In this document: piece by piece, positions 15,558-34,304 of the stretch
How the letters are laid out: every line of letters begins with the position of its first letter
Position numbering within the stretch: the first letter of the stretch is position 1
Origin: Clostridia bacterium
GTDB taxonomy: Bacteria; Bacillota; DULZ01
Direction of reading: 5' to 3'
Assembly: GCA_012840125.1 (NCBI GenBank)
Contig: DULZ01000096.1
Span: 1 to 43,538, forward strand
Length of the DNA stretch: 43,538 bases
Translations under genes and position numbers: made by a program
Notes under the pieces: model-generated
What the model was told of the DNA's origin: nothing
The model's database searches: none
What the model saw: the letters and a program-made list of their open reading frames with translations, nothing else

Positions 15558-15780
15558 AGCAAAAACGGAGATTTACCCTGCGGTGTTTGTGATAGCCACT
15601 AGTTTTGAGCCAACACCTATTAAAAGGGAGCCTGGCCTCTGGATGTGGATTGTAGGCCTTCGTACTGTGCGCGAGCTCGTGAAGGAAACAAAGAAGCATT
15701 CAGGAGGGCACCCACCTGCGGAGAGCAGGTTCAAAACAGGGCGTCACGGCACGTGTGGGGTTTCATCTTTCGTTGCCACG
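15558..15780 (+). ncRNA. ssrS: 6S RNA
   Basis: 6S RNA binds sigma-A RNA polymerase holoenzyme as a promoter mimic and tunes transcription in stationary phase. The 5' arm holds CTGCGGTGTTTGTGA, followed about 15 bases later by GAGCCAACACCT, the same layout as the 5' part of known 6S RNAs, where GGTGTT pairs with AACACC. Terminal pairing joins AACGGAG (about 15564-15570) with CTTTCGTT (about 15768-15775). An adjacent promoter and terminator bracket it. Position also agrees: in Bacillus subtilis a 6S gene lies between aspS and the tcdA homologue yrvM. The 3' end is approximate. Confidence 0.85.
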
Positions 15781-32168: not shown

Positions 32169-32200
32169 TAACTAACACAATGACAGGCGGGGGGATAAAG

Positions 32201-32650
32201 GTGGATCATAAAGGGGACGCGTTGCTGACCAAGTACCTCCAGGTATTAGGCAAATCCGCCGGTAAAGAAATGGAAAATATCAGAGCGAAGATGGGCTGGT
32301 CTTTGGCCGAAGATTTATGGGGAAGTCTGGAAACTGAGCCTAAGACCGTTGAGCAATTAATTGCTTTCTTAAATTACAGACTGCAGGCGGAGTTTCCTTT
32401 TTGCGAAAGGCTTGAACTGAAAGAAGCCTCACCGGTGGATATTACGGTGATGGTTCATGGATGTGCCTTCAAGAAAGCGAACCTGGATTTAGTGCAGCAC
32501 CATCGGCAAAACTTGTGCCCGGTAGATCCCTTCTTGATATTTTTCTTGAATCGAAGCTTCAGCCAGAATTGCTGGTTGGTGGATAATGCTTTTACGGAAG
32601 ATGGCTGCATCATGAAGTTTTCTTTAAGCAAAAGCTGCGCCCTTAAGTAG
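32201..32650 (+). CDS. Unknown Cys-rich protein, about 149 residues
   Basis: I do not recognise this family. Starting at GTG 32201 (GGGGGG a few bases upstream), the product begins MDHKGDALLTKYLQVLGK. It has a helical N-terminal half and a second half with six cysteines: FPFC, VHGCAF, NLCPVDPF, QNCW, DGC and KSC. No signal peptide or membrane span is evident. Such Cys and His spacing could bind metal or heme, but no ligand set is obvious. It has its own promoter and terminator and lies just before the selenoprotein gene. Confidence 0.7.
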   Translation: MDHKGDALLTKYLQVLGKSAGKEMENIRAKMGWSLAEDLWGSLETEPKTVEQLIAFLNYRLQAEFPFCERLELKEASPVDITVMVHGCAFKKANLDLVQHHRQNLCPVDPFLIFFLNRSFSQNCWLVDNAFTEDGCIMKFSLSKSCALK

Positions 32651-32666
32651 GGGTAACGGTCATGAG

Positions 32667-32689
32667 AGGCTGCATGGGCAGCCTTTTTG
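32667..32689 (+). terminator. Intrinsic terminator before the selenoprotein gene
   Basis: AGGCTGC (32667-32673) pairs with GCAGCCT (32678-32684) across ATGG, followed by T-rich sequence. Confidence 0.85.
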
Positions 32690-32715: not shown

Positions 32716-32744
32716 TTGACAGCAATTTGTTTAAAAAGTATAAT
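32716..32744 (+). promoter_or_regulatory. Consensus promoter of the selenoprotein gene
   Basis: TTGACA (32716-32721), 17-base spacer, TATAAT (32739-32744): perfect consensus, leader of about 50 bases. Confidence 0.88.
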
Positions 32745-32802
32745 AAAAAAACAACCGGGAGCATAATTTGCTTGCATCATTACACTGGAAAGGAGAAAAG
32801 CC

Positions 32803-33087
32803 ATGACACGGGTGAAATTTTCGGAGGCAGCCATTAATTACATCAAGAGTAAAACTGATACGGTTACATTACTGGTGGCCTCGGTAGGGGGATGAGCAGG
32901 TTCCTGTCAAATGCCTGCCGTGTTCGCAGGCAAGCCGGATAATGTGAAATCTTATGAATACACGCAGGTGGACGGCTTAAATGTTTATATAGACAAAACC
33001 GTTCCGGTCCATCCGGAGGGGTTACAAGTGGACCTAAAAGGTTTCGGCTTGTTCAAGAGATTGGTCGTGGATGGGTTCATGGTTTAG
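32803..33087 (+). CDS. HesB-like selenoprotein with in-frame UGA (Sec-31)
   Basis: One frame runs from ATG 32803, preceded by AAAGGAGA, to TAG 33085-33087, broken only by TGA at 32893-32895. Read as selenocysteine it gives 94 residues with the active-site stretch SVGGUAGSCQMP (Sec-31 and Cys-35). The C-terminal half (GLNVYIDKTVPVHPEGLQVDLKGF) resembles the HesB/IscA fold, but the CxC pair of A-type Fe-S carriers is absent. This fits the small HesB-like CC/Se-motif (seleno)proteins of Clostridia, whose function is unknown. A SECIS-like hairpin lies 16 bases after the TGA. Thioredoxin-like and CcdA genes follow. The alternative, a nonsense-mutated gene, is less likely given the intact frame, promoter and hairpin. 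Confidence 0.88.
32912..32932 (+). promoter_or_regulatory. Bacterial SECIS-like stem-loop
   Basis: TGCCTGC (32912-32918) pairs with GCAGGCA (32926-32932), 7 perfect pairs around the 7-base loop CGTGTTC, beginning 16 bases after the TGA. Spacing, short stem and a G in the first two loop bases fit bacterial SECIS elements, which recruit SelB. An alternative stem, GCAGG (32896-32900) with CCTGC (32914-32918), would start right after the TGA. Confidence 0.78.
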
Positions 33088-33115
33088 TTTTTCTGCGATA
33101 TAATATAATAGCGCG

Positions 33116-33146
33116 GTGGGGCAACATGGACCATATGCTGTCCCAC
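33116..33146 (+). promoter_or_regulatory. Hairpin in the leader of the thioredoxin-like gene
   Basis: GTGGGGCA (33116-33123) pairs with TGTCCCAC (33139-33146), one G-T pair. It lies just downstream of a TATAAT at 33104-33109, so it would be at the 5' end of the thioredoxin-ccdA mRNA; no T tract. Role unknown (stabiliser or regulatory). Confidence 0.45.
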
Positions 33147-33171
33147 TTTATGTTTAACAGGGGGGTTGTTT

Positions 33172-33588
33172 ATGAAAAAGCGGCTAACCATTATCTTGGT
33201 CGCAGCGATCCTGATAGCCGGGGTGACGGCCTTCCGCCTCCTCAGCGCAGGTGCCGGTGAGTTGGAAGCCACCCCGAATCCGGAGGAACGCTTGGCTTTA
33301 GCCCTGGCCCAAAACAAACCCATATTCATCGAGTTTTTCGCGGACCGCTGTCCGGCGTGCGTGGCCATGAAACCGACCATCGCTGAATTGAAGAAAGAAT
33401 ACGGCGACCGGATCGAATTTATCCTGGCTGATACTGACGGTACCGGCTTGGCATTGGCCATCGAATACCAGGTCATGTATATCCCGTCATATGTATTTAT
33501 TAACGCTCAAGGTGAACGGGTCGGTGGGGATATGTCCGGTTACATGTCCAAGGCGACGCTGGAAGGTTTCTTAAAAGCGCTGTTGTAA
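33172..33588 (+). CDS. Membrane-anchored thioredoxin-fold protein
   Basis: 138 residues. An N-terminal membrane anchor or signal (about 5-24) carries a thioredoxin domain outside the cytoplasm. The redox motif is CPAC (FFADRCPACVAM, about 63-66), the cis-Pro loop is MYIPSYVFINAQGE, and a helix ends the protein. ATG 33172 follows AGGGGGG by 6 bases; the in-frame TTG at 33166 touches it. It lies 29 bases before ccdA, whose product would hand it electrons across the membrane. Confidence 0.9.
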   Translation: MKKRLTIILVAAILIAGVTAFRLLSAGAGELEATPNPEERLALALAQNKPIFIEFFADRCPACVAMKPTIAELKKEYGDRIEFILADTDGTGLALAIEYQVMYIPSYVFINAQGERVGGDMSGYMSKATLEGFLKALL

Positions 33589-33617: not shown

Positions 33618-34304
33618 ATGATTGAGTATTTTACCAATCTGGTGAGCCAATCCATAACGGGAAGCCTGGGTTTGGCACTGCCCTTGATTTTTGTGGCCGG
33701 GGTGGTGACCAGTTTTAGTCCTTGCATTTTATCCATGATACCGGTCTTGGTAGGCTATGTAGGTGGATACAGCAATCCTTCCAGGCTTAAAGGTTTTTCC
33801 ATGTCCTTTCTTTTTGTCCTCGGGCTGGGAGTAACCTTTGCCATCCTGGGCATCACGGCCGCCAGTTTCGGCAGAGTATTTGGACAAATCGGCTCCCACT
33901 GGTACTTGATCATGGCCGCAGTAGCCATTCTCATGGGGTTGCAGCTGTGCGGTGTTTTCCACTTCAGTTTTCCCGGTTTTAAGACCATGCCCATCAAAGT
34001 AAAAGGCGTGGTGGGCAGCTTTCTCATGGGCCTCTTCTTTGGCCTCGTCGCTTCGCCTTGTGCCACGCCTGTGTTGGCGGTGATTCTCACCTATTTGGCC
34101 AGTAAAGGAGATCTGGTTTACGGGGGCTTGATGTTATTTGCCTATGGGTTGGGCCACGGCATGCCGCTAATAGTGGCAGGAACCTTTACCGGCGCTATCA
34201 AGAATTTGCGGCATTTTCAGAAATACAGTCCTTATGTCACTTATGCCAGTGGAGGCATCCTCATTCTACTGGGGGCGTATCTTTTTTCCTTGGCTTTCAT
34301 TTAA
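33618..34304 (+). CDS. ccdA: CcdA/DsbD-type transmembrane electron carrier
   Basis: 228 residues, six predicted membrane spans. It passes reducing equivalents from cytoplasmic thioredoxin to exported thiol proteins. Both redox cysteines are placed as in CcdA: VTSFSPCILSMIPVL in the first span (about 33-47) and LVASPCATPVLAVIL in the fourth (about 140-154). ATG 33618 follows GGAGAAGGGG. Paired with the thioredoxin-like gene; its nearest upstream redox neighbour is the selenoprotein. Confidence 0.92.
   Translation: MIEYFTNLVSQSITGSLGLALPLIFVAGVVTSFSPCILSMIPVLVGYVGGYSNPSRLKGFSMSFLFVLGLGVTFAILGITAASFGRVFGQIGSHWYLIMAAVAILMGLQLCGVFHFSFPGFKTMPIKVKGVVGSFLMGLFFGLVASPCATPVLAVILTYLASKGDLVYGGLMLFAYGLGHGMPLIVAGTFTGAIKNLRHFQKYSPYVTYASGGILILLGAYLFSLAFI

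Follow-up and report, generated by a model that had tools for sequence, protein, structure and literature searches.

In a 2026 review, NF041239 was listed as a predicted selenoprotein family from Moorella thermoacetica with the motif CxxU, one selenocysteine (Sec) and an unknown function (PMC13188914 Table 1). The HesB-like proteins of TIGR01911 include a verified selenoprotein in Methanococcus, whose function is likewise unclear (PMC11097638). The gene described here lies in a 43,538-nucleotide stretch of DNA from a Clostridia bacterium, called the window below, and is a new member of the already known family NF041239. The family evidence set out here indicates that the conserved feature of NF041239 is not the published CxxU motif.

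The gene and its locus

The first-pass annotation of this DNA had proposed an overlooked selenoprotein, and the frame proved to be as it claimed, running from ATG 32803 through an in-frame TGA at codon 31 to TAG 33085-33087, with a read-through product of 94 residues that contains SVGGUAGSCQ. The ribosome site that it had mentioned is also present. The features of the locus are as follows.

32664..32687, + strand: terminator-like hairpin (-15.0 kcal/mol, z -4.25), then TTTTTGTT, ending the upstream unit (orf156)
32716..32744, + strand: promoter TTGACA-17-TATAAT of the predicted selenoprotein gene (12/12 consensus matches)
32790..32795, + strand: ribosome binding site AAGGAG (from the sequence)
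32803..33087, + strand: predicted selenoprotein gene of family NF041239, 94 aa with Sec31 (profile match, relatives, codon pattern)
32893..32895, + strand: UGA codon almost certainly read as Sec (Sec31; aligned column 76 U / 16 C / 2 A / 1 V in 95 distinct homologues)
32912..32932, + strand: SECIS-type hairpin UGCCUGC-CGUGUUC-GCAGGCA (-11.8 kcal/mol, z -3.48; stem intact in 57/57)
33115..33147, + strand: hairpin in the spacer that separates the selenoprotein gene from the thioredoxin gene (-17.5 kcal/mol, z -2.62)
33172..33588, + strand: membrane-anchored thioredoxin-like protein with CPAC (Pfam PF00085, E 1.1e-11; conserved neighbour)
33618..34304, + strand: CcdA/DsbD-type transmembrane electron carrier (Pfam PF02683, E 4.7e-32)

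The gene, its TGA and the gene order are kept in two family-level relatives, which are the class's two other genomes. The order in all three is U32 peptidase, orf156, selenoprotein, thioredoxin, ccdA and sigma factor. L076 and L028 each have a similar GC-rich hairpin and T run, read by eye, at the corresponding position, and TATTGACAGCA...TATAAT with an upstream TTTCGCAAA box is conserved in both relatives. An intergenic hairpin of the type GGGAC...GTCCCA recurs in each of the class's three genomes; the one at 33115-33147 is possibly an attenuator or a processing site. The membrane anchor of the thioredoxin-like protein was read from its hydrophobic N-terminus. The product of orf156 (32180-32650), 156 residues long and encoded just upstream of the selenoprotein gene in all three genomes, belongs to no known family in Pfam or NCBIfam. 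Elsewhere in the window, a 6S RNA was recognized at 15572-15765 (113.5 bits).

Decoding of the UGA codon

An open frame of this kind is no proof by itself, as long open frames flanking a TGA are not rare in the window: of the 1443 TGA stops in its six frames, 29 are preceded by 30 or more open codons and followed by about 62. That such two-sided frames arise by chance, and that this one is broken by a single stop, could speak for a pseudogene, a sequencing error or a 30-residue product stopping at the UGA. Against this, the same TGA is present in the two family relatives and in about 70 other homologues, and the codons downstream are under selection. Differences between the window and L076, split by codon position, amount to 0.27/0.13/0.57 upstream of the UGA and 0.32/0.16/0.57 downstream; so similar a pattern argues that translation and selection act on the downstream part as they do on the upstream part. 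On these sequence comparisons, the pseudogene or short-product reading is already refuted, and we give it almost no weight. What puts decoding far above chance is the combination of a TGA kept by relatives, codon-position patterns that agree across it and a conserved hairpin (below).

Genes for SelA (611 bits), SelB (386 bits once its pieces are joined) and SelD (383 bits, itself carrying one in-frame TGA) were found in the genome that carries the window (2.47 Mb, 97.2% complete), as was a tRNA-Sec with anticodon UCA. The aligned column at position 31, counted in the list above over homologues from the same phylum, is occupied by Sec or Cys in nearly every case. Neither a lack of selenocysteine genes nor a lack of homologues with Cys or Sec at this position, which the first-pass annotation had named as signs of a pseudogene, was therefore encountered, and its selenoprotein claim is supported by the complete machinery, the homologues and the SECIS-like hairpin. 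An in-frame UGA might also be decoded as Trp, or through some other stop reassignment, and the UGA itself is all that speaks for this. The homologues align Cys and never Trp at the UGA, the Sec machinery is complete and a hairpin is tied to the codon, which leaves such a reassignment most improbable. As possible alternative Sec codons, TAA and TAG in two copies of another genome (G383) were discarded, being near the start of diverged copies and off the Sec column.

A conserved hairpin behind the UGA

The hairpin at 32912-32932 begins 16 nt past the UGA and its apical loop 23 nt past it; this is a position just 3' of the UGA, with G/GU in the apical loop CGUGUUC, as in a SECIS element. The hairpin spacing is shared by 64 Sec homologues, 7 of which are of a type with two consecutive Sec codons (UU) and another hairpin and were set apart, leaving 57 single-Sec homologues. 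Five pairs and the loop CGUGNNN are kept in 57/57 of these with the same arrangement, one having TGTGNNN. Throughout the 57, Val is always encoded by GTG and Pro by CCT or CCC. Where the Ala/Thr codon changes, so does the Ala/Val codon (GCC..GCA with ACC..GTA), so that the RNA stem holds though both amino acids change. Conservation of the protein sequence PAVYAG adds to the pattern; it cannot account for the invariant third codon positions.

A score for the positioned hairpin averaged 15.5 in Sec forms vs 11.3 in non-Sec forms (Mann-Whitney p = 8e-5, a guide and not a strict probability, because related sequences share history). The hairpin is mostly absent from Cys forms and present in a few. 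A fixed 48-nt segment folds with nearly equal energy in the two kinds of protein gene (-13.4 kcal/mol for Sec, -13.2 kcal/mol for Cys); it is the positioned hairpin alone that separates them. At one locus (L044, G046:C17), two tandem paralogues adjoin each other, an SC-U copy with the hairpin and an SC-C copy without it.

The family and its motif

The protein matches NF041239 with 88.9 bits (curated cut-off 40) over profile positions 2-90 of 91, and this is exactly the family meant by the earlier description of it as a CC/Se-motif (seleno)protein. Since a model for NF041239 exists, modern annotation is able to find the gene. The motif position that carries Cys or Sec in the family is occupied by Sec31. 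In place of the CxxU of PMC13188914, the window protein has VGGU, within the context GGUAGSC, and thus no Cys at -3; its only Sec and Cys residues are Sec31 and Cys35, in a U-x-x-x-C arrangement. Such variation is widespread, with C-x-x-U in only 22-23 of the 76 Sec members, which means that CxxU does not define NF041239. The other patterns are U-C (21), U-x-x-C (9), U-U (7) and no Cys nearby (13), and in 11 of the 76 the Sec is the protein's sole Cys or Sec.

A second NF041239 gene was not found in the window's own genome. Two other genomes (G015 and G237) hold second family copies, L045 and L121, whose site lacks both Sec and Cys (VGTAGGP and IGTAGGP), which suggests a changed or non-catalytic role for these copies.

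Another set of paralogues (L137-L147), from five families, has two consecutive in-frame TGA codons, typically read as GUUNAFYAPSG. These paralogues were found in G046, G080 (twice), G116, G149, G226, G250, G274, G341, G362 and G381, and also in G408, and run on for about 65 conserved residues past the TGA pair. Their hairpin is a distinct one, CCCCAUC-AGGU-YUGGUGGGG, 3' of the pair. From these features they are apparently natural Sec-Sec proteins. The UU motif is absent from the 119-family table of the review (PMC13188914). A consecutive-Sec branch, if decoded as read, would be out of the ordinary for the machinery that inserts Sec.

HesB/IscA ancestry

The protein had initially been called HesB-like, and profile comparison upholds this at the level of the superfamily. 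Aligned with hhalign to HesB-like Sec proteins of related genomes, the family matched over its full length with Sec on Sec (probability 96.3, E 1.5e-9), and aligned to canonical IscA it placed Sec on the first IscA cysteine (probability 89.3, E 2e-6); each E-value comes from one pairwise comparison against a small template alignment, without the correction that a library search would call for. The profiles thus indicate that NF041239 is homologous to the HesB/IscA superfamily. Assignment to the named families did not hold, as TIGR01911 is not among the NCBIfam matches at E <= 1 and the Pfam match to PF01521 is weak (18.3 bits vs a cut-off of 26.3). A canonical PF01521 protein was not found in the window's own genome.

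An IscA-type carrier has three Cys ligands, including a C-terminal CxC. The window protein offers Sec31 and Cys35 only, and the first-pass annotation was right that the CxC of Fe-S carriers is missing. Searching PDB sequences with a profile of the family gave no match up to E 10, and an AlphaFold2 model built from two sequences, the window protein and one relative, reached a mean pLDDT of 40.4; with a pLDDT of about 40, it is the profiles that carry the proposal of a HesB/IscA-type fold. A relation to bacilliredoxins, raised by weak Pfam and NCBIfam matches, was dropped after profile comparison gave a probability of 0.9.

Thioredoxin genes near the family

Across 61 family loci, the commonest neighbour is a thioredoxin-related protein. 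Of 40 genomes, 12, belonging to 6 of 24 families, have a same-strand thioredoxin gene no more than 1.5 kb away, where 0.18 families would be expected from thioredoxin counts in the 40 genomes (p ~1e-8). The arrangements differ: TrxA is directly downstream in G015, G308, G187 and G112, or past an opposite-strand regulator gene in G039, G116, G080 and G341; a Trx-TrxR fusion is upstream in G049; and membrane-anchored thioredoxin with CcdA is found in the window, G001 and G002. In some lineages (f38, f92) an opposite-strand gene stands between the selenoprotein and thioredoxin genes. Three genomes (G048, G086 and G153) have instead an upstream CoA-disulphide-reductase-like/rhodanese protein, its identity read from sequence, and no thioredoxin neighbour. 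The thioredoxin link and the profile-level relation to HesB/IscA are new additions, in that no earlier report was found in a neighbourhood literature that was incompletely covered.

A proposed role

The glycine-rich loop holds one reactive Sec, a resolving Cys is not conserved, the cluster ligands have been lost and thioredoxin genes recur as neighbours. Taken together, these features make it reasonably probable that the NF041239 protein is a thioredoxin-reduced selenoenzyme, with a redox role, whose IscA-type scaffold no longer carries Fe-S clusters. As judged from comparison, SelB and Sec-tRNA would decode UGA31 as Sec under the direction of the hairpin at 32912-32932, giving a small protein whose fold, by its profiles, would be of the HesB/IscA type. 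Sec would sit on the first IscA cysteine, within the loop GGU[A/G]G. The protein lacks the C-terminal CxC that holding an Fe-S cluster requires. The Sec would attack an oxidised substrate to form a selenenic acid or mixed selenosulphide, and thioredoxin would restore the oxidised Sec; both the reductant and the type of reaction are what we infer from these sequences. The neighbouring thioredoxin is the membrane-anchored protein with CcdA in the window's lineage, and ordinary TrxA or a Trx-TrxR fusion elsewhere.

It counts against a redox role that none of the patterns among the 76 Sec members includes a conserved resolving Cys, that 18 of the 24 lineages have no thioredoxin neighbour and that in f38 and f92 an opposite-strand gene intervenes. 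No signal peptide was seen in the window selenoprotein, and since its thioredoxin is membrane-anchored, direct contact between the two is doubtful in this lineage. The chief alternative is a selenium, persulphide or metal carrier that would hold a metal (Zn, Fe or Cu) or a labile Se or S atom on Sec31 of the IscA scaffold and pass it on, with thioredoxin merely keeping the Sec reduced. The HesB/IscA homology and a Sec at a cluster-ligand position would fit a carrier, as would ZnuA/ZnuC-like metal ABC transporter genes (identity read from sequence) within 3 kb in two or three lineages (L080, L081 and L085), and the UC, CU and UU forms would suit soft-metal sites. Yet the other two IscA ligands are missing, Sec is the sole soft ligand in many members and the commonest neighbour is thioredoxin, and we regard a carrier as rather unlikely.

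For the thioredoxin-reduced selenoenzyme, a broader and more tentative proposal can be made: that NF041239 as a whole consists of thioredoxin-dependent selenoenzymes on a cluster-less Fe-S-carrier scaffold, in which the site versions CC, UC, CU, UA and UU have all been tried, UU being consecutive Sec decoded from UGAUGA. If true, these versions would form a ready-made series showing what one vs two Sec add. A family listed without a role gains a testable one from its thioredoxin neighbourhood in six lineages and its HesB/IscA ancestry.

Comparison with known systems

The bacilliredoxins BrxA/BrxB (PF06491, TIGR04191) show a weak local match around the active-site loop of the window protein, and profile comparison does not support a relation. 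With the A-type Fe-S carriers IscA/SufA/HesB (PF01521) there is distant homology, Sec31 falling on their first conserved cysteine; these carriers have the C-terminal CxC, whereas the window protein lacks it and stays below the Pfam cut-off. The HesB-like proteins of TIGR01911 share with it the profile homology, a Sec in the same loop and the absence of CxC, but have the motif UxGP, and the window protein does not match their model at E <= 1. Closest is NF041239 as listed, from which the window protein differs in having no Cys at -3 and no second Cys of the CC pair (its two nearest relatives contain one Sec and no Cys), and with which it shares the full-length match and the place of the Sec.
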